Assembly: GCF_000463015.1 (NCBI RefSeq)
Contig: NC_022247.1
Span: 186,001 to 250,000, forward strand
DNA length: 64,000 nucleotides
DNA from: Variovorax paradoxus B4
GTDB taxonomy: Bacteria; Pseudomonadota; Gammaproteobacteria; Burkholderiales; Burkholderiaceae_C
Direction: 5' to 3'
Part shown: in pieces, positions 30,067-49,492 of the stretch
How positions within the stretch are numbered: the first letter of the stretch is position 1
Layout of the letters: each line of letters opens with the position of its first letter
Position numbers and translations under genes: made by a program
Notes under the pieces: generated by a model
The model's input: only the letters and a program-made list of their open reading frames with translations
Told to the model about the DNA's origin: nothing
The model's database searches: none

Positions 30067-31266
30067 TCAGTGCGCGCCCGACATCACCACGGGGATCTCC
30101 GTGGCCGGCGGCGTGTTGCGGCTGCGGCCGCAGCGCACGATGCCGTCGATCATCACCATGCCCACGCCCGGGATGTCGCCGAGCTGCACGCTCTCGAGCA
30201 GGCCCGGCGCGGGCGAGTGCTGCGCGCGGTCCATGAAGACGAAGTCGGCGTCGCGGCCCACTTCGATCAGTCCGCAGTTGAGCTTGCGGATCTTCGCCGT
30301 GTTGCCCGTGGCAAAGCAGAACACCAGCTCGGCCGGGATGCTCGCGATGGACGAGAGCATGGCCACCATGCGCAGGATGCCCAGCGGCTGCACGCCCGAG
30401 CCGGCGGGCCCGTCAGTGCCGAGGATCACGCGGTGCGGGCACTTGAGTTCGAGTGCCGCCTTGGCCGCGGCAATGGCCACCTTCTCGTTGCCGTTGTGCA
30501 CGATCTCGATCGCGCGCGAGCTCTTCTCGCACAGCTCGCACACATGCGCCTCGGGCAGCGAGGTGTGGCCGCCGTTGATGTGGCCGATGATGTCGGCATC
30601 GGCTTCGAGCACCACGTCCTTGTCGATCAGGCCCGAGCCCGGGATCGACGGGCCGCCCGTGTGGATCGTGCTCTGGATGCCGTACTTGCGCGCCCAGGCC
30701 ACCATCTCCTTGGCCTCGTAGCCGGCCTTCACCGAGCCCAGGCCCACTTCGCCGAGCAGGCCCACGCCGGCGTCGGCGAGTTCCTTGAAGTCGCTCTCGA
30801 CCATGCCCTTCTCGATCACCGGCGCGCCGGCCAGTACCTTCACGCCGCCGGGGCGGAAGTTGTCGAACGCGCGCTGCGCGGTGATGGCCAGCGCCTTCAG
30901 GCCCACGATGTCCTTGGGCCGGCCGGGCAGGTGCACCTCGCCGGCCGAGATCATGGTGGTGACGCCGCCATGCATGGTGGAATCGATCCAGCCGATCTGG
31001 CCCTGGCGCGGCGTCCAGTCGCCGAACACCGGGTGCACGTGGCTGTCGATCAGGCCGGGCGCCACGCAGGTCTGCCTGGCGTCGATGACGGTCTGTGCGC
31101 CTTCGAGGTCGCAGTCCTTTTCCTTGCCGACCGCCACGATCAGGCCGTCGTTCACCACGATGGTGTCGGCGTCGAGAATGGGCTTGTCGATGTCGCCCGA
31201 GAGCAGCAGCCCTATGTTCTTGATGACGACCTTGCCCGACTTGCCGCCGGCTGCGATTTCTGCCAT
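30067..31266 (-). CDS. Enamidase-like amidohydrolase (cyclic enamide hydrolase)
   Basis: 399 aa. The sequence follows closely what I recall of Eubacterium barkeri enamidase: an early IIKNIGxxxSGDI-like strand (here VVIKNIGLLLSGDI), GLIDSHVHPVFGDWTPRQ with the HxH metal ligands, HGGVTTMISAGEVHLPGRPKD, GEVGLGSVKAGYEAKEMV, HTGGPSIPGSGL, SHINGG-type IGHINGGHTS, LGTDGPAGSGVQPLGILR and a C-terminal SRNTPPA. Enamidase opens 1,4,5,6-tetrahydro-6-oxonicotinate to 2-formylglutarate plus ammonia. GAGG lies before the ATG. Its start lies 55 bp inside the TetR gene end, so the two are translationally linked. Another cyclic amide as substrate is possible. Confidence 0.72.
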   Translation of the reverse strand: MAEIAAGGKSGKVVIKNIGLLLSGDIDKPILDADTIVVNDGLIVAVGKEKDCDLEGAQTVIDARQTCVAPGLIDSHVHPVFGDWTPRQGQIGWIDSTMHGGVTTMISAGEVHLPGRPKDIVGLKALAITAQRAFDNFRPGGVKVLAGAPVIEKGMVESDFKELADAGVGLLGEVGLGSVKAGYEAKEMVAWARKYGIQSTIHTGGPSIPGSGLIDKDVVLEADADIIGHINGGHTSLPEAHVCELCEKSSRAIEIVHNGNEKVAIAAAKAALELKCPHRVILGTDGPAGSGVQPLGILRMVAMLSSIASIPAELVFCFATGNTAKIRKLNCGLIEVGRDADFVFMDRAQHSPAPGLLESVQLGDIPGVGMVMIDGIVRCGRSRNTPPATEIPVVMSGAH

Positions 31267-31976
31267 TTCGTGTTGTCCTCGTCGTGGGGTGGGATGTTGT
31301 TGTCCTGCGCCTCGTCCGCGCGCACGGTGCGCAGCACGGTCTCGATCACGAAGTCTTCCCAGTGCGTGATCGCCTCGGGCGACTCCAGCGGCTCGCCGAG
31401 GAAGGCCGTGAGCGTGTGCCGGTTCGAGGTGTAGAAGTAGCCGGTGGAGGCGATCAGCAGGTAGATGTCGCGTGCGATCAGGTTCTTGCGGAACAGGCCC
31501 TGGGCCGCGCCGCTGGCGAGGATCTCGGCAATGATCGCCACCGCGCGCGACGAGTATTCGCGCGCCCGCAGCGACTTCGAGATGTGCCGGCCCTTGTGCA
31601 GGTTCTCGGTGTTCAGGAGCGTCACGAACTCGGGGTTCTTGCGGTAGTAGCCCAGCACGAAGCGGATGACCTCGGTGAGCGCCTCCACGGGCCGCGAGGC
31701 GTCGAGCGCGATGGCGGCCTCGGCGTCGTCCATGCGCTTGTAGATGCCTTCGAGCACCGCGATGAAGAGGCCTTCCTTGCTGCCGAAGTAGTAGTAGATC
31801 ATGCGGTCGTACGACTTGGCTGCCTTGGAGATCTTCTCCACGCTGCCGCCGTCGTAGCCGTACTTGGCGAACACCTTGGTCGCCGCCTTCAGGATGCTGT
31901 CGCGCGTGGCCTGCGCCGCGGCCTCGCGCACGCCGGTGCGGCGCTGGGGCTTGGTGGCAGCGGGCTTGCGTTCCAT
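31212..31976 (-). CDS. TetR-family transcriptional regulator of the enamidase gene
   Basis: 254 aa from ATG 31976 (a GTG one codon earlier is also possible). N-terminal helix-turn-helix TRDSILKAATKVFAKYGYDGG followed by SKAAKSYDRMIYYYFGSKEGLF is typical TetR. The C-terminal ligand domain includes RFVLGYYRKNPEFVTLLNTENLHKG-like text resembling regulators of aromatic catabolism. The C-terminus runs 55 bp into the enamidase gene. Candidate operators with TGTAG/CTACA arms lie between the FNR and reductase genes at 33015-33068. Confidence 0.87.
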   Translation of the reverse strand: MERKPAATKPQRRTGVREAAAQATRDSILKAATKVFAKYGYDGGSVEKISKAAKSYDRMIYYYFGSKEGLFIAVLEGIYKRMDDAEAAIALDASRPVEALTEVIRFVLGYYRKNPEFVTLLNTENLHKGRHISKSLRAREYSSRAVAIIAEILASGAAQGLFRKNLIARDIYLLIASTGYFYTSNRHTLTAFLGEPLESPEAITHWEDFVIETVLRTVRADEAQDNNIPPHDEDNTKWQKSQPAASRARSSSRT

Positions 31977-31988
31977 CACGGGCGGCCG

Positions 31989-32032: not shown

Positions 32033-32076
32033 TGGAGTTACGCGAGCGAGGCGAGTGAAAAGCCGGGGGGCCAACA

Positions 32077-32850
32077 TTACTTTTCCGCGAACGCGCGTTC
32101 GACGACGAAGTCGCCCGGCGTCGAAGTGTTGCCTTCCTTGAACCCGCGCTTCTCCAGGATGTGCTTCAGGTCCACCAGCAGGCCGGGGCTGCCGCACAGC
32201 ATCACGCGGTCTTCCAGCGGATTGAGCGGGGGCAGGCCGAGGTCGTCGGTGAGCTTGTTGGTCTCGATCAGGTCGGTGATGCGGCCCTGGTTGCGGAACT
32301 CCTCGCGCGTGACCGTCGGGTAGTAGAGCAGCTGCTTGGCAACCATCTCGCCCAGGAACTCGTGCTTGGGCAGGTGGTCGGTCACGAGGTCGTGGTAGGC
32401 CAGCTCGTCGACCTGGCGCACGCCGTGCACCAGGATGACCTTCTCGAACTTCTCGTAGGTGTCCGGGTCGCGGATGATGCTCATGAACGGTGCGAGGCCC
32501 GTGCCCGTGCCGAACAGGTAGAGGCGCTTGCCGGGCAGCGTGTAGTCGATCAGCAGCGTGCCGGTGGGCTTGCGGCCGACGATGATGGTGTCGCCCACCT
32601 GGATGTGCTGCAGCTTCGAGGTGAGCGGGCCTTCTTCCACCTTGATGCTCAGGAACTCGAGATGCTCCTCGTAGTTCGGGCTCACGATGCTGTAGGCGCG
32701 CAGCAGGGGCTTGTTGTTGACCTTCAGGCCGATCATCGTGAAATGACCGTTCGAGAAGCGCAGCGCCGGGTCGCGCGTGGTGGTGAAGGTGAACAGGCGG
32801 TCGGTCCAGTGGTGGACGCTCAGGACGCGTTCTTCGCTGAAAGCACTCAT
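32077..32850 (-). CDS. fpr: Ferredoxin-NADP+ reductase
   Basis: 257 aa bacterial FNR: FAD-binding segment LLRAYSIVSPNYEEHLEF, NADP domain with LYLFGTGTGLAPFMSIIRD and VILVHGVRQVDELAY, MLCGSPGLLVD, and the C-terminal FVVERAFAEK typical of subclass I bacterial FNRs. The start is ATG 32850, giving the normal family length. A longer frame to 32946 adds 32 unlikely residues. It exchanges electrons between NADPH and ferredoxin or flavodoxin. It is divergent from the 6-hydroxynicotinate reductase-like gene, an enzyme class that in E. barkeri is ferredoxin-dependent (EC 1.3.7.1). FNR may thus supply its electrons (inference); a general redox role is equally possible. Confidence 0.93.
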   Translation of the reverse strand: MSAFSEERVLSVHHWTDRLFTFTTTRDPALRFSNGHFTMIGLKVNNKPLLRAYSIVSPNYEEHLEFLSIKVEEGPLTSKLQHIQVGDTIIVGRKPTGTLLIDYTLPGKRLYLFGTGTGLAPFMSIIRDPDTYEKFEKVILVHGVRQVDELAYHDLVTDHLPKHEFLGEMVAKQLLYYPTVTREEFRNQGRITDLIETNKLTDDLGLPPLNPLEDRVMLCGSPGLLVDLKHILEKRGFKEGNTSTPGDFVVERAFAEK

Positions 32851-33174: not shown

Positions 33175-34791
33175 ATGACAGAACACACCAAGACAGACGG
33201 ACTGCCCGGCATGGACATGCCGGTGGCCTTCGAAGCCGGCGCCGGCGCCTTCGGCAAGGCGCCCCCGCGCAACGAGCGCATGAGCACGGCCAAGGTCGAA
33301 TGCAACGCCTGCCCGGTGCTGTGCCAGATCTCCGACGGCCGCACCGGTGCCTGTGACCGCTATGCCAACAAAGAGGGCGTGCTGGTGCGCGTCGACCCGG
33401 TGGTGCTGCTGCGCCGCGCGGTCGCGAGCGAGGCCCCCGTGCTGGTGCCCTTCGACCGCCCCGCCGCCGAGAAGGTGGAGGGAAGCGCGCCCGACTGGAG
33501 CGGCGACCTGCTGCACGCCGACGAAGTCTTCGTGACCGGCGTGGGCTCGTCCACCACCTATCCCGACTACAAGCCCGCCCCTTTCATCGTGGCCTCCAAG
33601 GCCCGGGGCGTCGACATGGTCACCGTCGTCACCGAAGGCATCTTCAGCTACTGCAGCTTCAAGGTGAAGATCGACACCGACCGCTTCCTCGGCTCCGAGC
33701 AGGCCAACGTGCGCTACAAGGGCGAGGTGGTCGGCCATGTCACCACGGCCGAATACGGCTCGCAGATGCTCTCGCTGGGCGGCGTGCACCACCTCACCGG
33801 CGGCAGCAAGAAGGAAGGCCGCATGACGGCCGAGCTGATGCAGCTGCTGGGCAACAAGAAGGCCGTCGAATGCACCATCGACGGCGGCTCCACCCTCGTC
33901 ATCCAGGCCGGCAGGGCGCCCATCGTCAACGGCGTCGAAGAGCAGCGCATGCGCGTGGGCTGCGGCTCGGCGGCCGTGGGCATCTTCGCGCGCCAGTTCG
34001 CGGGCGTGGCCGACGAGGTGGTGGTGGTCGACGACCACATCACCGGCGTGCTCACAGAGCACCAGGCCGGGCGCTGCCTCGACATGGCGCCTTCGGGCAT
34101 CCAGATGCTGGGGCGCAAGTCCACGCCGGGGCGCTACTTCCAGGTGGCGAACCCGGGCAACGGCTGGGGCGGCACCGACATCGCCGATCCGCTCTCGATC
34201 ATCGAGGGCTGGGAAGAGGGCGTGGCGCGCCCCGGCCTGCGCCTCCTGATGACATCGACCACCGGCGAGCATGCGCAGTGGTACGTGCTCGACGAAGCGC
34301 TGAAGCCGGTCGAACAGCAAATGCCGCCCGAGGTGCGCCGCATCGTCGAGCGCATCGGCGAGAACTGCGAACCATCGCTGTGCACCGTGCTGTTCCTCGG
34401 TGGTGCGGGCGGGTCCTTGCGCGCCGGCGTCACCGAAAACCCCGTGCTGCTCACGCGCGCCATCAAGCGCGCGCTGGTCAACGTCACCTGCGGCGGCGCG
34501 CCGGCCTATGTGTGGCCCGGCGGCGGCATCACCGTGATGGCGGACGTCATGCGCATGCCCGACAACAGCTTTGGCACCGTGCCCACGCCGGCCATCGTGG
34601 CGCCCATCGAGTTCAGCATGCGGCGGGACGACTACGAAGCGCTCGGCGGCCACATGGAACACATCTTCTCGCTCGAGCAGGCGCTTTCGCGCGGCGCATG
34701 GCAGGAAGACGGCGCACCGCTGGCGCGGCAGTGGGTCGCCATGGACGACGCCAATCCGTGGCCGCTCGGCCACACCCCGATGCTGGGCTGA
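33175..34791 (+). CDS. 6-hydroxynicotinate reductase-like iron-sulfur protein
   Basis: 538 aa. An N-terminal cysteine cluster CNACPVLCQISDGRTGAC (CX2CX3CX9C, about residues 43-60) should hold a [4Fe-4S] centre. Downstream are GVGSSTTYPDYKPAPF, TEGIFSYCSFKVKID, CTIDGGSTLVIQAG, MRVGCGSAA and VTCGGAPAYVWPGGG. The sequence and cysteine pattern correspond to proteins named 6-hydroxynicotinate reductase after the E. barkeri enzyme (EC 1.3.7.1), which reduces 6-hydroxynicotinate to 1,4,5,6-tetrahydro-6-oxonicotinate with ferredoxin. I assign it from memory of that family. The 4-bp gap to the UPF0280 gene and nearby enamidase support the pathway. A generic ferredoxin-linked ring reductase is the alternative. 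Confidence 0.65.
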   Translation: MTEHTKTDGLPGMDMPVAFEAGAGAFGKAPPRNERMSTAKVECNACPVLCQISDGRTGACDRYANKEGVLVRVDPVVLLRRAVASEAPVLVPFDRPAAEKVEGSAPDWSGDLLHADEVFVTGVGSSTTYPDYKPAPFIVASKARGVDMVTVVTEGIFSYCSFKVKIDTDRFLGSEQANVRYKGEVVGHVTTAEYGSQMLSLGGVHHLTGGSKKEGRMTAELMQLLGNKKAVECTIDGGSTLVIQAGRAPIVNGVEEQRMRVGCGSAAVGIFARQFAGVADEVVVVDDHITGVLTEHQAGRCLDMAPSGIQMLGRKSTPGRYFQVANPGNGWGGTDIADPLSIIEGWEEGVARPGLRLLMTSTTGEHAQWYVLDEALKPVEQQMPPEVRRIVERIGENCEPSLCTVLFLGGAGGSLRAGVTENPVLLTRAIKRALVNVTCGGAPAYVWPGGGITVMADVMRMPDNSFGTVPTPAIVAPIEFSMRRDDYEALGGHMEHIFSLEQALSRGAWQEDGAPLARQWVAMDDANPWPLGHTPMLG

Positions 34792-34794
34792 GCC

Positions 34795-35697
34795 ATGACC
34801 GCCCAACGCAGCGCGCTCGACAAGAACCGCTGGCACTTCAACCACGGCCCGATCGACGTCGTGGCCGAGGCGCACGGCGATCCGTACGCCGTTGCCGCCG
34901 CGCACGACGCGGCCTGGGCGCGCTTCGGCCATGTGCTGGACGAGCTGGTGCGCGAGCTGCCGCTGCTGCGCCTGCCCGTGACCGACAACATGCGTCCACG
35001 CGGCGTGGTCGCCAGGCGCATGTGGGATGCCTGTGCCGCGTTCGCGCCGATGTTCATCACGCCGATGGCAGCCGTGGCCGGTTCGGTGGCGCAGGAACTG
35101 ATCGCGTTCTACGAACGCCCTGGCATCGAGCGGGCCTGGATCAACAACGGCGGCGACATCGCGCTGCACCTCGCACCAGGCCATTCGGCGCGCGTGGGTG
35201 TCTACGCCGACCTTGCGCGCTTCGACTGGCGTGACGGCGGCATCCTCACCACCGACGGCCAGTTCGAGATCGGGGCCGAGCAGCCGGTGCGCGGCGTGGC
35301 CACCAGCGGCTGGCGCGGGCGCAGCTTTTCATTGGGCATTGCCGACAGCGTGACGGTCCTGGCCGCCACGGCGGCACAGGCCGATGCCGCCGCCACCGTG
35401 ATTGCCAATGCGGTCGACGTGGACGATGCCGCCATCCGGCGGCGCCCCGCCAGCGAATGCAAGGACGATAGCGACCTGGGCGACACCCTGGTCACGGTCG
35501 ACGTGCCGCCGCTGGCGCCTTCGCAGGTGAAAAACGCGCTCGACGCCGGCGCCGTGTGCGCCAAGGCGCTGCAAAAAGGGGGGCTCGTCTGGGCCGCTCT
35601 GCTCGTTTGCCAGGGGCAGTGGCGACTTGTCGAACCCTTATGCTCGAAGGTGCTGCCCAGGGCGCCGTCCGATGCAGTTGGTTCAGTATTTGCTTAA
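34795..35697 (+). CDS. UPF0280 (ApbE-superfamily-like) protein
   Basis: 300 aa. Family text: HFNHGPIDVVAEAHGD, RGVVARRMWDACAAF, ITPMAAVAGSVAQELI, WINNGGDIALHLAPG and TVLAATAAQADAAATVIANAV. UPF0280 proteins are related to ApbE flavin transferases. Known ApbE proteins attach FMN or insert flavin in Fe-S-linked enzymes, so this one might mature the preceding Fe-S reductase (inference). It starts 4 bp after that gene's stop. Confidence 0.83.
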   Translation: MTAQRSALDKNRWHFNHGPIDVVAEAHGDPYAVAAAHDAAWARFGHVLDELVRELPLLRLPVTDNMRPRGVVARRMWDACAAFAPMFITPMAAVAGSVAQELIAFYERPGIERAWINNGGDIALHLAPGHSARVGVYADLARFDWRDGGILTTDGQFEIGAEQPVRGVATSGWRGRSFSLGIADSVTVLAATAAQADAAATVIANAVDVDDAAIRRRPASECKDDSDLGDTLVTVDVPPLAPSQVKNALDAGAVCAKALQKGGLVWAALLVCQGQWRLVEPLCSKVLPRAPSDAVGSVFA

Positions 35698-35718: not shown

Positions 35719-36360
35719 ATGATCGATATACGCCGCGTCTTCACCCATGTCGAGCACATCCACCACGAGTTCGGGCCGCGCGCCGACACCCCGTTGGTGC
35801 GCGGTGCCATCGGCGCGGTGCTGACCAATCCGTTTGCGGGCCGCTACGAGCCCGACATCCTGCCGATGATGGCGCTGCTCGACCCGGTGGGCGTCGACAT
35901 GGCGCACAAGCTGCATGCCGCCATGGACGTGCCGCTCGAGCAGATCGCCACCTACGGCAAGGGCGCCATCGTCGGCGCCGCCGGCGAGCTCGAGCACGGC
36001 GCGCTCTGGCACGTGCCCGGCGGCTATGCCATGCGCGAACTGCTCGGCTGGAAGGGCGACCGCGCGGCCTACACCGCGGGCAAGGCCGAGGAAAAAACCG
36101 GCCAGCCCGGCAATGCGCTTTCCATCGTGCCCTCGACCAAGAAGGTCGGCCCGCCCGGCGCCGCGCTCGACGTGCCGCTCACCAACATCAACGCCAGCTA
36201 CGTGCGCGGCCAGTTCGACGCCATCGAGGTGCGCGTGCCCGGCGCGCCGGCGGCCGACGAGATCGTCTTCATCCTCGCGATGAGCACCGGCTACCGCGTG
36301 CATGCACGCGTCGGCGGCCTGCTCGCGAAAGACATCAGCAAATGGGACGGCCTGCGCTGA
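35719..36360 (+). CDS. Amino acid synthesis family protein (PF06684/DUF1185), paralog 1
   Basis: 213 aa. Family landmarks shared with the next gene: NPFAGRYEPD, ATYGKGAIVGAAGELEHG, SIVPSTKKVGPPGAALDVPL, FDAIEVRVPGAPAADEIVF and a C-terminal KWDGLR. PF06684 proteins have a chorismate-mutase-like trimeric fold and no established reaction despite the name. The start ATG 35719 has a weak AAGG 10 bp upstream. It contains a longer middle loop (LLGWKGDRAAYTAGKAEEKTG) than paralog 2. Confidence 0.85.
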   Translation: MIDIRRVFTHVEHIHHEFGPRADTPLVRGAIGAVLTNPFAGRYEPDILPMMALLDPVGVDMAHKLHAAMDVPLEQIATYGKGAIVGAAGELEHGALWHVPGGYAMRELLGWKGDRAAYTAGKAEEKTGQPGNALSIVPSTKKVGPPGAALDVPLTNINASYVRGQFDAIEVRVPGAPAADEIVFILAMSTGYRVHARVGGLLAKDISKWDGLR

Positions 36361-36394: not shown

Positions 36395-36979
36395 ATGACC
36401 GCCAACATCCGCAAGCTCGTCATCCAGGTCGACGAAACCCGCAAGGAAATGGGCCAGGACATTGCGCCGCCCACGCGCCGCGCCGTGGCCATCGCAGTGA
36501 TCGAGAACCCCTACGCGGGCCGCTTCAGCGAGAACCTCGACGAGCTGATCGCCATCGGCGAAGAGCTCGGCGCGCTCCTGGGCCAGAAGGCCGTGAAGGC
36601 GCTGGGCATCGAGCCGGGCCAGGCGCAGAGCTATGGCAAGGCCGCCATCGTCGGCGAGAACGGCGAGCTCGAGCATGCCGCCGCCATCCTGCATCCCAAG
36701 CTCGGCGCGCCGCTGCGCGTGGCCGTCGAAAAGGGCGCGGCGCTCGTGCCCTCGGCCAAGAAGCGCGGCACGCTGGGCACGGCCATCGACGTACCGCTCG
36801 GCCACAAGGATGCGGCCTTCGTGCGCAGCCACTTCGACGCCATCGAGGCCCGCGTGTCCGACGCGCCGCGCGCCAACGAGATCGTGGTGGCCGTTGCCGT
36901 CACCGACAGCGGCCGTCCGCTGCCGCGCATCGGCGGGCTGCAGGCCAGCGAAATCAAGGGTGAAGACGGGCTGCGCTGA
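36395..36979 (+). CDS. Amino acid synthesis family protein (PF06684/DUF1185), paralog 2
   Basis: 194 aa from ATG 36395, behind GAAGGA. Motifs parallel to the neighbour are NPYAGRFSEN, SYGKAAIVGENGELEHAA, ALVPSAKKRGTLGTAIDVPL, FDAIEARVSDAPRANEIV and a C-terminal GEDGLR. Two adjacent divergent members suggest a hetero-oligomer or two related substrates. The conserved pairing with the Fe-S reductase and enamidase hints at a step on the ring or on the ring-opened product; the actual reaction is unknown. Confidence 0.85.
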   Translation: MTANIRKLVIQVDETRKEMGQDIAPPTRRAVAIAVIENPYAGRFSENLDELIAIGEELGALLGQKAVKALGIEPGQAQSYGKAAIVGENGELEHAAAILHPKLGAPLRVAVEKGAALVPSAKKRGTLGTAIDVPLGHKDAAFVRSHFDAIEARVSDAPRANEIVVAVAVTDSGRPLPRIGGLQASEIKGEDGLR

Positions 36980-37047: not shown

Positions 37048-38253
37048 ATGAACCCATTGCGTCACGTCTTCAGCGCCGCGGCCGTTGCCACGCTGGCCAC
37101 CGCCCTCGTTCCTGCCCATGCCCAGGGCGTGATCAAGATCGGCGAGGTCAACAGCTACAAGGCCCAGCCCGCCTTCCTCGAGCCCTACAAGAAGGGCATG
37201 GAGCTGGCCGTGGAAGAGATCAACGCCAAGGGCGGGGTCAACGGCCGCAAGGTCGAGCTCATCACGCGCGACGACAACGCCAACCCCGGCGACGCGGTGC
37301 GCGTGGCCGAGGAGCTGGTGGCGCGCGAGAAGATCGACGTGCTCACCGGCACCTTCCTGTCGAACACCGGCCTGGCCGTGGCCGACTTCGCCAAGCAGAA
37401 GAAGATCTTCTTCCTGGCCGGCGAACCGCTGACCGACAAGATGACCTGGCAGGGCGGCAACGAATACACCTTCCGCCTGCGCCCCGGCACCTACATGCAG
37501 GCCGCGATGCTGGTGCCCGAAGCGGCCAAGCTCAAGAAGAAGCGCTGGGCCGTCGTCTACCCCAACTACGAATACGGCCAGTCGGCCGTGGCCGCGTTCA
37601 AGACGCTCCTGAAGGCCGCACAGCCCGACGTCGAGTTCGTCGCCGAGCAGGCGCCGCCGCTCGGCAAGGTCGATGCGGGGGCGGTGGTGCAGGCGCTGGC
37701 CGATGCCAAGCCCGATGCGGTCTTCAACGTGCTGTTCGGCGCCGACCTTTCCAAGTTCGTGCGCGAAGGCAACACCCGCGGCCTCTTCAAGGACCGCACG
37801 GTGGTGAGCGTCCTGACCGGCGAGCCCGAGTACCTCGACCCGCTCAAGGACGAGACGCCCAACGGCTGGATCGTGACCGGCTACCCCTGGTACGGCATCC
37901 AGACGCCTGAGCACAAGGCCTTCTTCCTCGCATACCACGGCAAGTACAAGGACTACCCGCGCCTCGGTTCGGTGGTTGGCTACAGCATGATCAAGTCGGT
38001 GGCGGCCGGCATCGAGAAGGCCAAGGGCACCGAGACGCCGAAGCTCGTCGCCGCCTTCAAGGGCCTGCAGGTCGACACCCCGTTCGGCAAGATCAGCTAC
38101 CGCGCCGAAGACCACCAGTCGACCATGGGCGCCTTCGTCGGCAAGACGAAGAACGAGAACGGCAAGGGCGTGATGGTCGACTACACCTACTTCGACGGCG
38201 CCAAGTTCCAGCCGAGCGCCGCCGACGTGAAGAAATCGCGCGCTGCAGACTGA
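37048..38253 (+). CDS. Branched-chain-type ABC transporter substrate-binding protein 1
   Basis: 401 aa periplasmic receptor of the Peripla_BP_6/LivJ class. The signal peptide is MNPLRHVFSAAAVATLATALV to AHA/QGVIKIG. Mature features are AFLEPYKKGMELAVEEINAKGG-type helix, NGRKVELITRDDNANPG and VLTGTFLSNTGLAVADF. AAGGAG lies 7 bp before the ATG. The 68-bp gap upstream is a long pyrimidine tract. It heads the import genes; the likely cargo is the N-heterocyclic acid of the cluster (inference), since LivJ-type receptors often carry aromatic acids in Burkholderiales. Confidence 0.88.
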   Translation: MNPLRHVFSAAAVATLATALVPAHAQGVIKIGEVNSYKAQPAFLEPYKKGMELAVEEINAKGGVNGRKVELITRDDNANPGDAVRVAEELVAREKIDVLTGTFLSNTGLAVADFAKQKKIFFLAGEPLTDKMTWQGGNEYTFRLRPGTYMQAAMLVPEAAKLKKKRWAVVYPNYEYGQSAVAAFKTLLKAAQPDVEFVAEQAPPLGKVDAGAVVQALADAKPDAVFNVLFGADLSKFVREGNTRGLFKDRTVVSVLTGEPEYLDPLKDETPNGWIVTGYPWYGIQTPEHKAFFLAYHGKYKDYPRLGSVVGYSMIKSVAAGIEKAKGTETPKLVAAFKGLQVDTPFGKISYRAEDHQSTMGAFVGKTKNENGKGVMVDYTYFDGAKFQPSAADVKKSRAAD

Positions 38254-41179: not shown

Positions 41180-41910
41180 GCACGCACGAAACACTGTTGA
41201 AGGCGAACTCGCTGTGCGCCTGGTATGGCGCCGCGCAGATCCTGTACGACGTCGATCTTGAAGTGCGGCGCGGCGAGGTCGTCGCGCTCATGGGGCGCAA
41301 TGGCGCCGGCAAGTCGACCACGCTCAAGACGCTGATCGGCATGCTCGCCAAGCGCAAGGGCAACGTCAGCTTCCTCGGCCACGACATCTCGAAGAGCGAA
41401 CCTCATCACGCGGCGAAGCTCGGCCTCGGTTTCGTGCCCGAAGACCGCCGCGTGTTCACCGATCTCACGGTGATGGAGAACCTCGAAGTCGGCAAGCAGC
41501 CGTCGCGCCGCTGGGCCGACGGCAGCGAGGCGCCGCTGTGGACGCCCGAGCGCCTGTTCAAGCTCTTTCCCAACCTGGGCGAAATGCCCGACCGCCCGGG
41601 CGGCCGCATGAGCGGCGGCGAGCAGCAGATGCTCACCGTGGCGCGCACGCTCATGGGCAACCCCTACCTGGTGCTGCTCGACGAGCCCTCCGAAGGCGTG
41701 GCACCGGTCATCGTCGAGCAGATGGCCAACATGATCCTGGAGCTCAAGGCGCAGGGCGTGAGCATCCTGCTGTCGGAGCAGAACATGCACTTCGCCGAAC
41801 TGGTGTCCGATCGCGCCTACGTGCTCGAGAAGGGCCAGATCCGCTACCACGCCACCATGGCAGAGCTCGCGGCCAACGAAGAGGTGCGCCGTGCCTACCT
41901 GAGCGTCTAG
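41176..41910 (+). CDS. Branched-chain-type ABC transporter ATPase (LivF-like)
   Basis: 244 aa. Walker A GRNGAGKST, signature MSGGEQQM, Walker B LVLLDEPSEGVAP and H-loop region ILLSEQNMHF. Second ATPase of the Liv-type importer. ATG 41176 overlaps the LivG-like stop (ATGA), so both are translated together. A 53-bp gap leads to the exported nicotinamidase-like gene. Confidence 0.93.
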   Translation: MSTHETLLKANSLCAWYGAAQILYDVDLEVRRGEVVALMGRNGAGKSTTLKTLIGMLAKRKGNVSFLGHDISKSEPHHAAKLGLGFVPEDRRVFTDLTVMENLEVGKQPSRRWADGSEAPLWTPERLFKLFPNLGEMPDRPGGRMSGGEQQMLTVARTLMGNPYLVLLDEPSEGVAPVIVEQMANMILELKAQGVSILLSEQNMHFAELVSDRAYVLEKGQIRYHATMAELAANEEVRRAYLSV

Positions 41911-41963: not shown

Positions 41964-42686
41964 ATGCACGACACGCACCGCAGATCCCTTCTGAAGTCCA
42001 CGGCCGCACTGGGCCTGCTGGGCGCGGCCGGAACGCTGTTCGCGGCCCCGAAGCTCAAGCCGAACGACAAGTCCGCGCTGCTCGTCATCGACGTGCAGAA
42101 CTGCTTCGTCGACGGCGGCACGCTGCCCGTCAAGGGCGGTGCCGAGGTGGTGCCTGTCATCAACCAGCTGGCCGATTCCTTCGAGAACATCGTGGTCACG
42201 CAAGACTGGCACACGCAAGGCCATGCGTCGTTCGCGAGCGCGCATGCCGGCCAGAAGCCGTTCAGCAGCATCAAGCTCTCCTACGGCAGCCAGGTGCTCT
42301 GGCCCGACCACTGCGTGCAGGGCACCGACGACGCGGCCCTGCACAAGGACCTGAAGCTGCCCACCGCGCAGGTCATCATCCGCAAGGGCTTCCACAAGGG
42401 CGTCGACAGCTATTCCGCCTTCGAGGAGGCCGACCGCAAGACCGCCACCGGCCTGGGCGGCTACCTCAAGCAGCGCGGCATCAAGACGGTCTACGTGGCC
42501 GGGCTGGCCACCGACTTCTGCGTGGCCTGGACTGCGCTCGACGCGCGCAAGGCCGGCTTCGAGGTCTACGTGATCGAGGACGCCACGCGCGCCATCGACC
42601 TCAACGGCTCGCTCGCCGCGGCATGGAAGCAGATGACGGCCAAGGGCGTCAAGCGCATCCAGTCCGCCGATATCCAGACGGCCTGA
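41964..42686 (+). CDS. Tat-exported nicotinamidase/isochorismatase-family hydrolase
   Basis: 240 aa. The N-terminus MHDTHRRSLLKSTAALGLLG carries a twin-arginine RRSLLK motif, a hydrophobic core and an AxA-like end (FAAP), so export by Tat is likely. The mature part is the PncA-type cysteine hydrolase. The catalytic triad is Asp in LLVIDVQNCFVDGG, Lys in IIRKGFHKG and Cys in GLATDFCVAWTALDARKAG; the metal ligands are in TQDWHTQGHASF. Known PncA enzymes hydrolyse nicotinamide to nicotinate and are normally cytoplasmic. A periplasmic form next to an importer suggests deamidation before uptake (inference). Confidence 0.83.
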   Translation: MHDTHRRSLLKSTAALGLLGAAGTLFAAPKLKPNDKSALLVIDVQNCFVDGGTLPVKGGAEVVPVINQLADSFENIVVTQDWHTQGHASFASAHAGQKPFSSIKLSYGSQVLWPDHCVQGTDDAALHKDLKLPTAQVIIRKGFHKGVDSYSAFEEADRKTATGLGGYLKQRGIKTVYVAGLATDFCVAWTALDARKAGFEVYVIEDATRAIDLNGSLAAAWKQMTAKGVKRIQSADIQTA

Positions 42687-42747: not shown

Positions 42748-43908
42748 ATGACGATTCCGATTTCGAGGCGCGCACTGGTGGCGGGCGGCGCAGCCCTGGC
42801 GCTGGGCCCCGGCCTTCTTCGTTCCGCACGCGCGGACAACGGCGTGACCGACAGCCTCATCCGCATCGGCCAGTCGGCCGTGTTCAGCGGCCCGGCCAAG
42901 GACTTCGGCATCGACTACCGCGCGGGCATCAAGCTGTACTTCGATCGCGTCAACAAGTCGGGCGGCGTCAATGGCCGCAAGCTCGAACTCGTCAGCTACG
43001 ACGATGCCTACGACCCCGCCAAGACGGCCGCCAACACGGCGAAGCTGATCGACGAGGACAAGGTCTTCGCGCTCGCGGGCTTCGTCGCCACCGGCAACCT
43101 CGCGGCCGCGATGCCGCTGGCCGAGAAAGCCGGTGTGCCGATGTTCGCGCCGCTGGTGGGCACCACCTCGTTCCGCACCAGGGTCAACCGCCTGCTGTTC
43201 CATGTGCGCGCGGGCTACGACCTCGAGCTGCGCAAGATCATCAGCCATCTCTCGACCATCGGCATCTCGTCGATCGCGGTGGTCTACCAGGACAGCGCCT
43301 TCGGCAAGTCGAATCTCGCCACCTGCGAGCAGCTGGCCGCCGACTACAAGGTGCAGGTCGTGAAGACGCTGCCGCTCGCCATTGCCGCCGAAGACGCCAG
43401 GCAGGTCGTCACCGGTCTGGCCGATGCCAAGCCCGGCGCGGTCTTGATGATCATGGCCGGGCGCATGGTGGAGGTCTTCATGCGCGACTACCGCGCCAAC
43501 GGCGTGGGAGCGCCGCTCTACACGCTGTCGGTCGGCATCACCGACGCGGCCGGTTCGGCCAAGCGCCTCGAAGGCAAGCTCGCGGGGCTGGTCACGGCCA
43601 GCATCGTGCCGCCGCCGCAGGCCGTGCGCGTGCCCATCGTGGCCGACTACCAGCGCGACCGCGCCGAGTTCGGCGAGAAGATCGACAGCTACACCACCCT
43701 CGAGGGCTACATCGCATCGCGCGTGATGGTCGAAGGCCTGCGCCGCGCGGGCAAGACGCTCACGCGCGACGGCTTCATTGCCGGGCTCGAAGGCATCGGC
43801 AGCACGCGCTTCGGCGATTTTCCGGTCGACTACAGCGCGAAGAACCACAACGGCTCGACCTTCGTGGACCTGGAGATGTACACCCGTGACGGCCAGTTGC
43901 GGCGCTGA
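42748..43908 (+). CDS. Branched-chain-type ABC transporter substrate-binding protein 2
   Basis: 386 aa, Peripla_BP_6 class. The signal MTIPISRRALVAGGAALALG with the SRRAL motif is Tat-compatible; cleavage is near ARA/DNG. Core text is IRIGQSAVFSGPAKDFGIDYR, INPxx-like LELVSYDDAYDPAKTAANT and PMFAPLVGTTSFR. It is the second receptor in the cluster for a single LivHM-GF membrane complex. It belongs to the subgroup that resembles aromatic or heteroaromatic acid receptors. The NicA-like gene begins inside its last 23 bp. Confidence 0.88.
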   Translation: MTIPISRRALVAGGAALALGPGLLRSARADNGVTDSLIRIGQSAVFSGPAKDFGIDYRAGIKLYFDRVNKSGGVNGRKLELVSYDDAYDPAKTAANTAKLIDEDKVFALAGFVATGNLAAAMPLAEKAGVPMFAPLVGTTSFRTRVNRLLFHVRAGYDLELRKIISHLSTIGISSIAVVYQDSAFGKSNLATCEQLAADYKVQVVKTLPLAIAAEDARQVVTGLADAKPGAVLMIMAGRMVEVFMRDYRANGVGAPLYTLSVGITDAAGSAKRLEGKLAGLVTASIVPPPQAVRVPIVADYQRDRAEFGEKIDSYTTLEGYIASRVMVEGLRRAGKTLTRDGFIAGLEGIGSTRFGDFPVDYSAKNHNGSTFVDLEMYTRDGQLRR

Positions 43909-44386
43909 GCCGCTGCACCTGCAGGTCAACGGCAGGGCCTGCTCGATTCCGGGCGTGCCGCGCGAGGCCACGCTGCTGCACCTGCTGCGCAACGACCTCG
44001 GCCTGAACGGGCCCAAATATGGATGCGGCCTGGGGCAGTGCGGCGCCTGCACGGTGCATGTCGACGGCGTGGCGGCGCGGTCCTGCGTGATTCCCGCGCA
44101 CGGCGTGGCGGGCCGCACCGTCACCACGCTCGAAGGCCTTGGCACGCGTGGGCGCTGGCATCCGGTGCAGGCCGCCTTCGAAGACGCGCAGGCCGCGCAG
44201 TGCGGCTACTGCCTCAACGGCATGGTCATGCAGGCCGCGGCGCTGCTTGCGCGCGATCCGCAGGCAAGCGAGGCGCGCATCCGCAGCGAACTCTCGGGCA
44301 ACCTGTGCCGGTGTGGCACGCACATTGAAATTCTGGACGCGGTACAGCGCGCGGCGGTGCGTATGCGCGCGGAGACAAACCGATGA
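43886..44386 (+). CDS. NicA-like 2Fe-2S subunit of a molybdenum hydroxylase
   Basis: 166 aa. The plant-type [2Fe-2S] motif YGCGLGQCGACTVHVDG and the second, helical cluster motif QCGYCLNGMVMQ plus NLCRCGTHIEI are intact, as in isoquinoline 1-oxidoreductase alpha and nicotinate dehydrogenase NicA (157 aa in Pseudomonas putida). The start is taken as GTG 43886 because it is the only standard start near the ferredoxin domain (LHLQVNGRACSIPG); it overlaps the receptor gene by 23 bp. It passes electrons from the molybdopterin site of the following subunit. Substrate by context: nicotinate. Confidence 0.87.
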   Translation: MTASCGAEPLHLQVNGRACSIPGVPREATLLHLLRNDLGLNGPKYGCGLGQCGACTVHVDGVAARSCVIPAHGVAGRTVTTLEGLGTRGRWHPVQAAFEDAQAAQCGYCLNGMVMQAAALLARDPQASEARIRSELSGNLCRCGTHIEILDAVQRAAVRMRAETNR

Positions 44387-44396: not shown

Positions 44397-44427
44397 TTGC
44401 TCCCTCTCCCGGAGGGAGAGGGAGCAA
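44397..44427 (+). repeat. REP-like element 2: 14-bp hairpin over the NicB ribosome binding site
   Basis: TTGCTCCCTCTCCC (44397-44410), loop GGA, and GGGAGAGGGAGCAA (44414-44427) form a perfect 14-bp stem. GGAG at 44421-44424 is the Shine-Dalgarno of the next gene, 8 bp before ATG 44433. If folded, it is fully paired. Related to the elements at 40332, 46757 and 46824. Confidence 0.8.
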
Positions 44428-44432: not shown

Positions 44433-47400
44433 ATGACGCGCCGCGCCGATCTGCCGCGGACCCGCGCGGATTTCCTTGCCGCCGACGGCGTGCTGCTGGT
44501 CGTGCGCGAGACGCCGCTCGCGCCTGCGCCCGCCAATGGGCAGCCCGCTGCCGTGCCGGGCAACCCGCTCGAAGGCGACGAGATCCTGCTTGCCGTGTGG
44601 GACGACGGCAGCGCCTCGGCTCTCAACGGCCACGTCGACCTCGGCACCGGCATCCAGACCGCGCTGGCGCAGATCGTGGCCGAGGAACTCGAGCTCGGCA
44701 TGCCGTGCGTGTGCATGATGCTCGGCGACACCGCGCGCGCGCCCAACCAGGGCGCGACGATCGCGAGCGCCTCGATCCAGATCCATGCGCAGCCGCTGCG
44801 CATGGCCGCCGCGCAGGCGCGCGCATGGCTGCTTGCGCGTGCGTCCGAGCGGCTCGGCGTTGCGGTGGAGGCGCTGCAGGTGCGCAACGGGGTGGTGCGC
44901 GTGGCCGAGGCGCCGGACCGCCGCATCAACTACGCGGACCTGGTGGCGGGGCAGCGCACCGTGCTGCGGCTCGACCCGCGTGCCCAACCCAAGGACCCCG
45001 CCGATTACCGCATCGTCGGCACGCGCCAGGCCCGCGTGGACATTCCGGCCAAGCTCGCGGGCGACCTCGTGTTTGTGCACGACATGCGCGTGCCCGGCAT
45101 GCTGCACGGCCGCGTGGTGCGCCCGCCGTACGCGGGCGCAGACCATGGCGAGTTCATCGGCAACACGCTCGAATCGGTGGACGAATCGTCGATTGCGCAC
45201 ATCCCCGGCATCCGAGCGGTGGTCGTGATCCGCGACTTCGTCGGCATCGTGGCCGAGCGCGAAGAACATGCCGAGCAGGCGCTGCGCGAATTGCGCGTGG
45301 CATGGAAGGCCTGGCCCGGCATGCCGGATCTTTCCGACCTGGCGCAGGCCTTGCGCGACAACCCGTCGACGCAGCGCCTGCTGGTCAACGAAGGCGATGT
45401 CGATGGCGCGATCGCCGCGGCCGCGCAGCCGATGCATCGCACCTACGTGTGGCCCTACCAGATGCACGCGTCCATCGGCCCCTCGTGCGCGCTGGCCGAC
45501 TGGCGCCCCGACGGCGGCATCGCCCTTCGCGTTTGGGCCGGCTCGCAGAACCCGCATGTGCTGCGTGCCGATCTCGCAAAGCTCATGGGCGTGGACGACG
45601 TGCAGGTCGACGTCGTCCGCATGGAAGCAGCGGGATGCTACGGCCGCAACGGCGCCGACGACGTGGCGGCCGATGCGGCGCTGCTCGCGCGCGCCGTGGG
45701 CGCGCCGGTGCGCGTGCAGCTCACGCGCGAGCAGGAGCATGCCTGGGAGCCCAAGGGCGCCGCGCAGCTCATGGAAGTGGATGGCGGCCTCATGGCCGAT
45801 GGCCGCATCGCCGCCTACGACTTCGAAACTTCATACCCATCGAACGGCGCGCCCACGCTCGCGCTGCTGCTCACGCGCACCATCGAGCCGGTGGCGCAGG
45901 CCTTCGAGATGGGCGACCGCACGGCGCGCCCGCCCTACAGCGTCGACAACCTGCGCGTGAAGGTCAACGACATGGCGCCGATCGTGCGTGCCTCGTGGCT
46001 GCGCGGCGTGTCGGCGCTGCCGAGTTCCTTTGCGCACGAGTCGTACATCGACGAGCTGGCCACCGCGGCGGGCGTCGATCCGGTGCAGTTCCGCCTGCGC
46101 CACCTGAACGATCCGCGCGCCGTCGAACTGGTGCAAGCCACCGCGCAGAAGGCCGGCTGGCGCATGCGCACCGGTCCGCAGGAGAACGCCGACGGCGGGC
46201 TCGGTGAAGGAGGCGACATTCTCTTCGGCCAGGGCTTTGCTTACGCGCGCTACATCCACAGCAAATGGCCTGGCTTCGGCGCCGCGTGGGCCGCATGGGT
46301 GGCCGACGTCGAGGTCAACCGCAAGACCGGCGAAGTGCATGTGCGCCGCGTGGTGGTGGGGCACGACGCGGGGCTGCTGGTCAACCCGGCGGGCGTCGAG
46401 CACCAGGTGCACGGCAACGTGATCCAGACCACGAGCCGCGCGCTCAAGGAAGAGGTGCAGTTCGCGCCGCAGCAGGGCGCGGCAACGGCTGGTGCGCAGT
46501 TGCTGCCCGGCGTGCTGCCCTCGGGCGTGGTCGCGAGCCGCGAATGGGGCAGCTACCCGATCATCAACTTCCGCGACGTGCCGGTGATCGAGGTCATGCA
46601 CATGCCGCGGCCCGGCGAACCGTCGCTCGGCGCGGGCGAGTCGTCGTCGGTGCCGGGAACGGCGGCGATCGCGAATGCGATCTTCGATGCGACGGGGGTG
46701 CGGTTCCGCGAGCCGCCGTTCACGCCGGAGAAGGTGCTGGCGGAGCTGAACCGGGGTTTGCTCCCTCCCCTTCCGGGGGAGGGCGGGGGTGGGGGCGAGC
46801 GGCGCTCGAATGGTGACGCTGCCGTGCCCCCATCCCAACCTTCCCCCGAAAGGGGAAGGAGCAAGACCGATGCGCCGTGGCCCGCGCGAAAAGGCCCCTG
46901 GGTCACCGGCGCCGCCCTGTTCATCGGCGGCATCGGCCTCATCGCCGGCCTGCTCGGCTGGCGCTCCGCCATCGCCCCGGTCTCGCTCAGCGCCCCGGTC
47001 TACAGCGAAGCCACCATCGAACGCGGCCGCGTGCTCGCCGCGCTCGGCGACTGCGCCGTGTGCCACACCGCACCGGGCGGCGCACCCAATGCCGGCGGCC
47101 GCGCGATGCAGACGCCCTTCGGCACGCTCTACACCACCAACCTCACGCCCGATGCCGACACGGGCCTGGGCCGCTGGTCGTTCAGCGCTTTCCAGCGTGC
47201 GATGCGCGAAGGCGTCTCGCGCGACGGCCACCATCTGTACCCGGCGTTCCCGTACACCGCCTTCGCCAAGACCGGCGACGACGACCTGCAGGCGCTCTAC
47301 GCCTACTTCATGTCCATGCCCGCGGTGCGCGCCGAAACGCCGAAGGCCGAACTGAAGTTTCCGTTCAACATGCGGCCGCTGATGGCCGGATGGAACGCGC

Positions 47401-48191
47401 TCTTCCATGACCCAGCGCCCCTGCAGCCGGTGGCCGCGCAAAGCGCGGAATGGAACCGCGGCGCCTACCTCGTCAACGGCCTGGGCCATTGCGGCGCCTG
47501 CCACACGCCGCGCAACGCGCTCGGTGCGGAGCAGGGCGGCAGCGCCTTCCTGTCGGGCGCGATGGTCGATGGCTGGGAAGCGCCGGCGCTCACCGGCCTG
47601 TCGTCGAAATCGGCCGTGCCATGGGATGCCGACGAGCTCTATCGCTACCTGCGCCAGGGCCACACGCAGCGCCATGGCATGGCGGGCGGCCCGATGGCCG
47701 AGGTGGTGCGCGAACTCGCGCAGGTGCCCGATGCCGACGTGCGCGCGATGGCCACCTACCTCGCCTCATTCAATCCGGCGCCCGCGGCCGAGCCGCAGGC
47801 CGCGGCGCAACAAGCGGTCGACAACGCGGCACGCGCGCAGGGCCGGCTGCTCGGTCCCGCGCAGCGCATGTTCGACAGCGCCTGTGCGTCATGCCATCAC
47901 GACGGCGACGGCCCCACGCTGCTCGGCGTGAACACGCCGCTCGCGCTCAACAGCAATCTCACGAGCGCGCGGCCCGACAACCTGCTGCGCACCATCCTCG
48001 ATGGCGTGCGAGAACCCGCAAGCCGCGACATCGGCTTCATGCCGGCCTTTCGCGACACGCTCGACGACCGGCAGATTGCCGAACTCGCGGGCTACATGCG
48101 CGCGCGCTTCGCACCGCAGGAGCCGGCGTGGAAGAACCTGCCGGCCGAAGTGGCGCGCGTGCGCGCCGCGCGCGGCCACGGCGCCGAGTAG
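44433..48191 (+). CDS. NicB-like molybdopterin dehydrogenase fused to a tri-heme cytochrome c
   Basis: 1252 aa in one uninterrupted frame. Residues ~1-770 are a molybdopterin-binding subunit of the IorB/xanthine dehydrogenase type: ALNGHVDLGTGIQTALAQI, NQGATIASASIQIHAQPL, RASWLRGVSALPSSFAHES, GAGESSSVPGTAAIANAIFD. A ~45-residue linker, encoded by an inverted pair of REP-like elements, follows. Then comes a transmembrane helix (WVTGAALFIGGIGLIAGLLG) and three c-heme motifs: CAVCH (~872), CGACH (~1019) and CASCH (~1150). Length and order match nicotinate dehydrogenase NicB of P. putida (1187 aa), which hydroxylates nicotinate to 6-hydroxynicotinate and passes electrons to the respiratory chain. 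No signal peptide precedes the molybdopterin part, so it is probably cytoplasmic with hemes in the periplasm. Another N-heterocycle as substrate remains possible. Confidence 0.82.
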   Translation: MTRRADLPRTRADFLAADGVLLVVRETPLAPAPANGQPAAVPGNPLEGDEILLAVWDDGSASALNGHVDLGTGIQTALAQIVAEELELGMPCVCMMLGDTARAPNQGATIASASIQIHAQPLRMAAAQARAWLLARASERLGVAVEALQVRNGVVRVAEAPDRRINYADLVAGQRTVLRLDPRAQPKDPADYRIVGTRQARVDIPAKLAGDLVFVHDMRVPGMLHGRVVRPPYAGADHGEFIGNTLESVDESSIAHIPGIRAVVVIRDFVGIVAEREEHAEQALRELRVAWKAWPGMPDLSDLAQALRDNPSTQRLLVNEGDVDGAIAAAAQPMHRTYVWPYQMHASIGPSCALADWRPDGGIALRVWAGSQNPHVLRADLAKLMGVDDVQVDVVRMEAAGCYGRNGADDVAADAALLARAVGAPVRVQLTREQEHAWEPKGAAQLMEVDGGLMADGRIAAYDFETSYPSNGAPTLALLLTRTIEPVAQAFEMGDRTARPPYSVDNLRVKVNDMAPIVRASWLRGVSALPSSFAHESYIDELATAAGVDPVQFRLRHLNDPRAVELVQATAQKAGWRMRTGPQENADGGLGEGGDILFGQGFAYARYIHSKWPGFGAAWAAWVADVEVNRKTGEVHVRRVVVGHDAGLLVNPAGVEHQVHGNVIQTTSRALKEEVQFAPQQGAATAGAQLLPGVLPSGVVASREWGSYPIINFRDVPVIEVMHMPRPGEPSLGAGESSSVPGTAAIANAIFDATGVRFREPPFTPEKVLAELNRGLLPPLPGEGGGGGERRSNGDAAVPPSQPSPERGRSKTDAPWPARKGPWVTGAALFIGGIGLIAGLLGWRSAIAPVSLSAPVYSEATIERGRVLAALGDCAVCHTAPGGAPNAGGRAMQTPFGTLYTTNLTPDADTGLGRWSFSAFQRAMREGVSRDGHHLYPAFPYTAFAKTGDDDLQALYAYFMSMPAVRAETPKAELKFPFNMRPLMAGWNALFHDPAPLQPVAAQSAEWNRGAYLVNGLGHCGACHTPRNALGAEQGGSAFLSGAMVDGWEAPALTGLSSKSAVPWDADELYRYLRQGHTQRHGMAGGPMAEVVRELAQVPDADVRAMATYLASFNPAPAAEPQAAAQQAVDNAARAQGRLLGPAQRMFDSACASCHHDGDGPTLLGVNTPLALNSNLTSARPDNLLRTILDGVREPASRDIGFMPAFRDTLDDRQIAELAGYMRARFAPQEPAWKNLPAEVARVRAARGHGAE
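46757..46801 (+). repeat. REP-like element 3, translated in the NicB linker
   Basis: TTTGCTCCCTCCCCTTCC-type left part followed by GGGGGAGGGCGGGGGTGGGGGCGAG. It is the inverted partner of the element at 46824-46866 and related to elements 1 and 2. It encodes the linker peptide LLPPLPGEGGGGGE without a stop codon. Confidence 0.75.
46824..46866 (-). repeat. REP-like element 4, translated in the NicB linker
   Basis: GTGCCCCCATCCCAACC then TTCCCCCGAAAGGGGAAGGAGC. As reverse complement it aligns with element 3 (shared TTGCTCC-TTCCCC, GGGGGA-GG and TGGGGGC blocks), giving a tail-to-tail pair 22 bp apart. It encodes PPSQPSPERGRSK in the linker. Confidence 0.75.
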
Positions 48192-48304
48192 CGCCTTCCG
48201 GGTCTTTCGCGCCCGCTCGCGCAGCGGCAAGGGGCACATTCATTCAGAATGTCCGCTCCAAGAACCCAACCCAAGTGCCGAACCCAAGTGCCTCCGGAGA
48301 CAAC

Positions 48305-49492
48305 ATGCCCCTGAATCTTTCCACCGCCACCAGCCTTCCGCGCGACGCCGAGCGCGCCACACTCGTCGGCCGCATCTGGCAGCCCGGCGTGGGCCCCGTA
48401 CTCGTGGCGGTGCATGAGGGCGGGCTGCACGATCTCTCGCGGCTCGCGCCCACGATGAGCGACCTGCTCGAGGCGAAGGAGCCGCCCTCCGATGCGGTGC
48501 AGCGCGCACTGCGCGGCGGCCAGGCTCCGCGCGTCGCCTCGCTGGCCGAGGCCATCGCCAACAGCGACGCCACCGCGCGCGACGAAGCGAAGCCGTGGCT
48601 GCTCGCACCCTGCGACCTGCAGGCCATCAAGGCCAGCGGCGTGACATTTGTCGAAAGCCTGCTCGAGCGCGTGATCGAAGAGCAGGCGCGCGGCGACGCA
48701 TCGCGCGCCGAGGCCACACGCGCGGCACTCAGCGGCGTGCTCGGCGACAACCTTGCGGGCATCGTGCCGGGCTCGGCCGAGGCCGCGAAGGTCAAGGAGG
48801 TGCTGATCTCGCAGGGCGCGTGGTCGCAGTACCTCGAGGTCGGCATCGGGCCCGACGCGGAGATCTTCACCAAGGCGCCGGTTCTCTCGGCCGTGGGCAC
48901 GGGCGCCGATGTGGGCATCCATGCCGCATCCGTGTGGAACAACCCCGAGCCCGAGGTCGTGCTTGCGATCAACAGCCGCGGCGAAACGCTGGGCGCGGCG
49001 CTCGGCAACGACGTCAACCTGCGCGACTTCGAAGGCCGCAGCGCGCTGCTGCTCGGCAAGGCGAAGGACAACAACGCCTCCTGCGCGATCGGTCCGTTCA
49101 TCCGCTTGTTCGATGCGCACTTCGGCATCGACGACGTGCGCCGCATCACGGTGGCGCTCGAAGTCACGGGCCCCGAAGGCTTCGTGCTCGAAGGCTCGAG
49201 TTCGCTTGCGAAGATCAGCCGCGATCCGCTCGACCTCGTCTCGCAGGCCGTCGGCGCGCACCACGACTATCCCGACGGCTTCATGTTGTTCCTGGGCACC
49301 ATGTTCGCACCGACACAAGACCGTCATGGTCCTGGGCAAGGATTCACCCACGTCGTCGGCGATCGCGTGAGCATCGCCGCGCCGGAACTCGGCACCCTCG
49401 TGAACCGCGTGGTCCATTCGGACCAAGCGCCACGGTGGACTTTCGGGTTAAGTGCGCTGATGCGGAATCTGGCTGCGCGCGGACTGCTGTAA
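48305..49492 (+). CDS. Fumarylacetoacetate hydrolase (FAH) family protein
   Basis: 395 aa, ATG 48305 behind CGGAGA. N-terminal domain ATLVGRIWQPGVGPVLVAVHEGG, then the FAH catalytic barrel: VTFVESLLERVIEEQA, YLEVGIGPDAEIFTKAPVLS, and GAxVGIH-type GADVGIHAASVWNNPEPEVVLAIN with acidic residues expected to bind Mg. C-terminal GLSALMRNLAARGLL. The family cleaves C-C bonds of diketo or oxo acids, or decarboxylates them. It follows the NicB-like gene by 113 bp and may process a ring-derived acid. The exact substrate is unknown, and membership in the same operon is not proven. Confidence 0.85.
   Translation: MPLNLSTATSLPRDAERATLVGRIWQPGVGPVLVAVHEGGLHDLSRLAPTMSDLLEAKEPPSDAVQRALRGGQAPRVASLAEAIANSDATARDEAKPWLLAPCDLQAIKASGVTFVESLLERVIEEQARGDASRAEATRAALSGVLGDNLAGIVPGSAEAAKVKEVLISQGAWSQYLEVGIGPDAEIFTKAPVLSAVGTGADVGIHAASVWNNPEPEVVLAINSRGETLGAALGNDVNLRDFEGRSALLLGKAKDNNASCAIGPFIRLFDAHFGIDDVRRITVALEVTGPEGFVLEGSSSLAKISRDPLDLVSQAVGAHHDYPDGFMLFLGTMFAPTQDRHGPGQGFTHVVGDRVSIAAPELGTLVNRVVHSDQAPRWTFGLSALMRNLAARGLL

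Follow-up and report, generated by a model that had tools for sequence, protein, structure and literature searches.

How might an aerobic betaproteobacterium degrade nicotinate with a reductase and a ring-opening enzyme of a pathway established in an anaerobe? This question is raised by a gene cluster of Variovorax paradoxus B4, located in a window of 64,000 nucleotides (positions 186,001 to 250,000 of the forward strand of contig NC_022247.1, assembly GCF_000463015.1; all positions given without a prefix refer to this window). The cluster codes for homologues of 6-hydroxynicotinate reductase (Hnr) and enamidase, together with a nicotinate hydroxylase of the NicAB type, an importer and a nicotinamidase. 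Matches to solved enzymes and comparison with related loci make it highly probable that this is a nicotinamide and nicotinate catabolic cluster of the Azorhizobium type. An earlier note on this DNA had presented the joining of an aerobic hydroxylase to an anaerobe-type reductase and enamidase as a surprise. This novelty fails because PMC3511419 had already reported clusters of this type from Azorhizobium, an aerobe, and from Bradyrhizobiaceae, and the window cluster is a betaproteobacterial member of this known kind. What the sequence comparisons suggest as new is the swapping of the ring-opening enzyme among related clusters and a role of the UPF0280 protein as maturation factor for Hnr.

The predicted nicotinate cluster

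The following genes were assigned, with the evidence in brackets.

30067..31266, minus strand: ena, enamidase orthologue, predicted to convert tetrahydro-6-oxonicotinate to 2-formylglutarate and NH3 (2VUN match, identity, five metal-site motifs)
31212..31979, minus strand: TetR-family regulator with a TetR_C_29 domain (domain search)
32077..32850, minus strand: fpr, ferredoxin-NADP+ reductase (NF008178, E 3e-40, under the cut-off of that model)
33175..34791, plus strand: hnr, 6-hydroxynicotinate reductase homologue (names of relatives, invariant cysteines)
34795..35697, plus strand: UPF0280 protein, ApbE-like (NCBIfam NF003322; one relative annotated UPF0280)
35719..36360, plus strand: aas1, PF06684 (former DUF1185) protein (Pfam)
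36395..36979, plus strand: aas2, PF06684 protein close to solved 2QTP (Pfam, structure match)
37048..38253, plus strand: Liv-type substrate-binding protein 1 (domain search)
38284..40209, plus strand: fused LivH-LivM type permease (domain search)
40376..41179, plus strand: LivG-type ATPase (domain search)
41176..41910, plus strand: LivF-type ATPase (domain search)
41964..42686, plus strand: nicotinamidase with twin-arginine signal (2WT9 match, RR motif)
42748..43908, plus strand: Liv-type substrate-binding protein 2 with twin-arginine-like N-terminus (domain search, N-terminus)
43778..44386, plus strand: nicA, [2Fe-2S] subunit of nicotinate hydroxylase (Fer2, Fer2_2; true start uncertain, within the open reading frame)
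44433..48191, plus strand: nicB, molybdopterin subunit fused to a cytochrome c region (domains, three CXXCH)
48305..49492, plus strand: FAH-superfamily protein (Pfam match slightly below cut-off)

The minus strand thus carries ena, the TetR regulator and fpr, and the plus strand hnr through nicB followed by the FAH-superfamily gene. Domain and structure matches as well as coding bias, with a third-position G+C of 0.84-0.94 in all named cluster genes as in real genes, bear out the presence of these genes at the places where the earlier note had put them. Conservation of the gene set was checked in the best 80 of 308 relative loci, mostly from Variovorax and other Comamonadaceae. There hnr, UPF0280, aas1 and fpr were each kept in 80 of 80 loci and ena in 77, the three misses all lying on short contigs. 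Because it is conserved across these 80 loci, the arrangement is not due to chance.

In the pathway proposed, the exported nicotinamidase would convert nicotinamide to nicotinate, which the Liv-type importer may bring into the cell. NicAB would hydroxylate nicotinate to 6-hydroxynicotinate with transfer of electrons to its cytochrome c domains, and Hnr would reduce the product to 1,4,5,6-tetrahydro-6-oxonicotinate, perhaps with electrons running from NADPH via Fpr and ferredoxin. Enamidase would then open the ring to 2-formylglutarate and ammonia. UPF0280 would probably serve to insert the Hnr flavin or to keep it in place, and the PF06684 pair may tentatively be placed at the open-chain enamine or formyl product. 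Related clusters would have an ATP-dependent HyuAB lactamase instead of enamidase. No cluster gene could be assigned to steps after 2-formylglutarate, and calling the cluster complete was too strong; later carbon flow would probably pass via glutarate with genes outside the cluster, as reported for Azorhizobium in PMC3511419. The uptake and reductive degradation of nicotinamide and nicotinate which had been proposed was right in outline, as judged from the 2VUN and 2WT9 matches, NicAB and the conserved gene set.

The enamidase assignment is supported by identity and by the metal site. Over 380 residues (11-390 on 2-381) the predicted protein matches the solved enamidase of E. barkeri, 2VUN, with an E value of 6e-109 and 48% identity, and all five of the motifs which we take to form the metal site (HxH, GEVGLG, HTGG, HINGG and an Asp) are kept, so that the window ena appears to be an orthologue of the 2VUN type. 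At least one of these motifs is altered in all ten alphaproteobacterial paralogues examined. Among such paralogues, six (L173-L178) with about 40-42% identity to the window ena carry Lys where the motif has Glu, and in five of the six Gln is also found in the HxH motif.

For Hnr neither a Pfam nor an NCBIfam match was obtained, and the comparison with solved structures gave no useful match (one at E 0.82). Many of the 120 matches listed are named 6-hydroxynicotinate reductase in NCBI or UniRef, others hypothetical protein, and the name used here rests on this database naming of relatives and on PMC3511419. With proteobacterial Hnr proteins of other families the window Hnr has 58-71% identity. 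Seven cysteines (C43, C46, C50, C60, C160, C263 and C398) proved to be invariant in 30 sequences and are candidate ligands of Fe-S clusters.

A sample of 398 genomes from the phylum contained hnr in 32, counting the genome of the window; the gene was also found in 68 of 385 alphaproteobacterial genomes (two weak matches, G408 and G724, excluded) and on 26 of 72,556 plasmid records; one of the plasmids, from a leaf member of the Comamonadaceae, carries the cluster without the nicotinamidase, the second receptor and the FAH gene. The frequencies in the phylum and in the alphaproteobacteria suggest that the reductive route of nicotinate degradation is common. In 20 further hnr loci from the phylum sample, which were read in detail, UPF0280 was present in all, PF06684 and a nicA-like gene in 19 each, ena within the locus in eight and fpr in six.

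Several points weigh against the proposed assignment. The link of Hnr to the E. barkeri enzyme is indirect, as the 42% identity reported in PMC3511419 applies to the SG-6C homologue and not to the window protein. The 2VUN enzyme and the proteobacterial enamidases form one clade against the paralogues in the best tree, with a weak support of 78/75. The substrate of the importer is guessed from gene position. The four other genome matches to fpr all have at most 32% identity, and fpr is probably a housekeeping copy because no close second copy exists in the genome. For the same reason it was rejected as a dedicated reductase of Hnr, while a supply of electrons from it to Hnr is possible.

PMC3511419 (2012) traces the discovery of the reductive route to E. 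barkeri and mentions a report of it from Azorhizobium, an aerobe; these two organisms are also named for it in PMC9304392. The legend of Fig. 4 of PMC3511419 lists the cluster in four alphaproteobacteria, Azorhizobium caulinodans ORS571, SG-6C, USDA110 and R. palustris HaA2. The window cluster is of the same kind and likewise from an aerobic setting, as in Azorhizobium. It differs by its betaproteobacterial host and, as far as the figure legend allows the comparison, by additional genes, namely those for a TetR regulator, an exported nicotinamidase and a second receptor as well as fpr alongside. With the fermentation of E. barkeri it shares the Hnr homologue and an enamidase with the same metal-site motifs, but it has a NicAB-cytochrome hydroxylase, and the steps that follow are different in Azorhizobium and probably also in this host.

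What the window shares with the Pseudomonas putida-type nic cluster (NicAB, C, D, E, F, X) is the NicA/NicB hydroxylase, whereas the ring would be reduced before opening. The usual aerobic route had been claimed to be absent, and this was borne out in part. In a search of the whole genome (7.1 Mb, two contigs) with NicX and NicC from Pseudomonas BYT-5, NicX gave no match at E 1e-5, the sole control being the pairwise identity of 81% between two NicX proteins. No NicC orthologue was found, the best genome protein having 36-37% identity as compared to 72% between two NicCs; NicD and NicF were not searched for. PF17645, the maleate isomerase family of NicE, had four matches. Surroundings were read for the strongest of them, which is flanked by LysR, TctC and MmgE/PrpD genes and was rejected as NicE on account of this neighbourhood, which is unlike a nic cluster.

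UPF0280 and the PF06684 proteins

Hnr of E. barkeri is said to contain a covalent flavin, and a 2006 abstract on the organism reportedly named nine proteobacteria as well. UPF0280, the gene of which adjoins hnr in 20 of 20 read loci whichever ring opener is present, has a resemblance to ApbE: 28 of 34 UPF0280 members matched the ApbE family (PF02424) at E values up to 10, the best being 7.2e-6, but the window protein scored 19 bits, under the cut-off of 25.6. A relative with solved structure is 2O34. In 80 alphaproteobacterial genomes devoid of hnr, drawn from 317 for the most part by serial number and including many small ones, UPF0280 yielded two weak matches only (25% and 30% identity, E 1.8e-4 and 9.3e-4). 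As the protein is ApbE-like, stands beside hnr, is nearly absent from the sampled genomes without hnr and would serve an enzyme with the covalent flavin just mentioned, the simplest idea is that it is a flavin-maturation factor, with the probable task of inserting the Hnr flavin or keeping it in place. This would give an unassigned family a testable function. What speaks against classical flavin transfer is that the segment between the ATSG and SVTV motifs, where the metal-binding motif of ApbE presumably should lie, is apparently too short to hold it, so that such a transfer is not assured. A search of the open-licence literature found no paper on UPF0280.

Trigonelline breakdown passes via a formyl dicarboxylate. 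Since that pathway, which includes the PF06684 relative TgnF, has such an intermediate in common with the one proposed here, a role on the open-chain enamine or formyl product is plausible for the PF06684 pair, and it probably acts there, although this is put forward tentatively. The family is missing in five genomes of the HyuAB type (one represented by L125 and L170, the others by L164, L165, L167 and L169), which tells against such a role. Structures of PF06684 proteins had suggested a function in amino-acid metabolism (PMC2954203). TgnF is said in PMC7913881 to stimulate succinic semialdehyde oxidation in the Acinetobacter trigonelline pathway, and the authors of that paper saw no such stimulation for their HcdD.

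The effect ascribed to TgnF, along with the position of UPF0280 and the PF06684 pair directly behind hnr, would also agree with both being catalytic steps after ring opening rather than maturation factors. This is rather unlikely, as UPF0280 is ApbE-like and stands beside Hnr with either ring opener, and a catalytic role of the PF06684 proteins is favoured in the proposed pathway as well. Of the extra steps for which the earlier note had considered PF06684, UPF0280 and FAH, catalysis by PF06684 is weakly favoured, UPF0280 looks more like a maturation factor, and FAH did not turn up in the conserved set.

Enamidase and HyuAB as probable ring openers

A gene for HyuA, of the hydantoinase/oxoprolinase type, is present in five of the 20 read hnr loci (L124, L125, L126, L128 and L132), and none of these five has ena. 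Oxoprolinase-type HyuA/HyuB genes were seen in place of ena at L126:10845-14803, L152:15650-19443 and L153:7762-11561. In 80 hand-chosen genomes out of 94 other Hnr genomes, an enamidase of 63-97% identity was found in 36 and a HyuA sharing 56% or more of its residues with the reference in 42; none had both and two had neither. The limits of the ena and HyuA clades were set after the gaps in identity had been seen (63% to 42%, and 52% to 46%). As an unselected check the 385 alphaproteobacterial genomes were used. Their 68 genomes with hnr comprised 29 with enamidase, 37 with the HyuA clade, none with both and two with neither (70% and 86% complete), and over all 385 enamidase occurred in 30 genomes (29 with hnr) and the HyuA clade in 46 (37 with hnr). 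One plasmid carries both an enamidase (66%) and a HyuA, the latter being distant (42%).

On a tree of 79 Hnr sequences made by a quick method (36 labelled ena, 41 HyuA and two unlabelled; G016 with its split hnr was left out), the label switched seven times, at least five of the switches being forced by starred branches, as compared to 25.9 in shuffles. In Neorhizobium hyuAB directly follows hnr, UPF0280 and two PF06684 genes. These comparisons suggest that HyuAB is probably an alternative, ATP-dependent ring opener in related clusters. We lean, with moderate confidence, towards a module of Hnr with its own ApbE-like maturation factor UPF0280, in which enamidase or an ATP-dependent HyuAB lactamase would have been interchanged at least five times, and PF06684 would act on the open-chain enamine or formyl acid as TgnF may do in trigonelline breakdown.

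That the mutual exclusion merely follows lineage, with HyuA serving another pathway, is improbable. HyuA relatives are abundant, the best HyuA match is no farther than 20 kb from hnr in only 24 of 42 genomes (one of the other 18 has a second copy at such a distance), and nine of the 46 alphaproteobacterial genomes carrying the clade have no hnr; against this stand the lack of co-occurrence in all 80 Hnr genomes, the repeated swaps on the Hnr tree and the gene order in Neorhizobium. As a replacement for enamidase, the HyuAB clade would gain a testable function as an ATP-dependent enzyme. No paper on hydroxynicotinate together with a hydantoinase was found in the open-licence literature.

Substrate, hydroxylase and neighbouring genes

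The nicotinamidase matches the solved 2WT9 with an E value of 4.5e-87, and in a simple search 67 of the 69 related loci that hold the gene showed an RR motif close to the protein start, which agrees with the twin-arginine export that had been predicted. The importer consists of two receptors, the fused permease and two ATPases. NicA with its [2Fe-2S] domains and NicB with molybdopterin and cytochrome domains and three CXXCH haem motifs match the NicAB layout. NicAB of the same type adjoins NicX and NicC/D/E/F-type genes in Pseudomonas BYT-5 and Azospirillum; the hydroxylase is therefore common to both routes, and the downstream half sets the route.

Degradation of another N-heterocycle, such as a substituted nicotinate or other hydroxypyridine carboxylate, with nicotinate not being the main substrate, is highly unlikely: Hnr is named by similarity only, and the occurrence in Hnr clusters of NicAB-cytochrome on the one hand and of an FAD-containing hydroxylase of the xanthine-dehydrogenase type on the other may mean varying input substrates, but the nicotinamidase within the cluster, the NicAB common to nic clusters and a nicotinate phosphoribosyltransferase gene that neighbours nicB in one related locus all point to nicotinate.

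The second hydroxylase type, in which an FAD-binding subunit goes together with a [2Fe-2S]-molybdopterin fusion protein, was seen in the hnr clusters L116 and L127-L131. The phosphoribosyltransferase gene, at L117:14933-16234, belongs to the cluster in L117, L118 and L122, and its place beside nicB suggests joint control of salvage and breakdown.

The FAH gene adjoins nicB in a second Variovorax (L163). It occurs in none of the 20 read hnr loci, 17 of which are informative as L113, L114 and L115 end inside nicB, and is not represented on the annotated plasmid copy of the cluster; the 80 conservation loci mostly stop before its position and are thus uninformative. Not being found with hnr outside Variovorax in the 17 loci and the plasmid copy, it was rejected as a pathway enzyme.

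The cluster is bounded by a glycosyltransferase-like gene (before 30000) and by the type VI secretion gene tssA (49625-50719), which follows immediately. Within it, CCCTCTCCC/GGGAGAGGG elements lie at 44402-44422 and 40333-40364, directly before the starts of nicB and livG.

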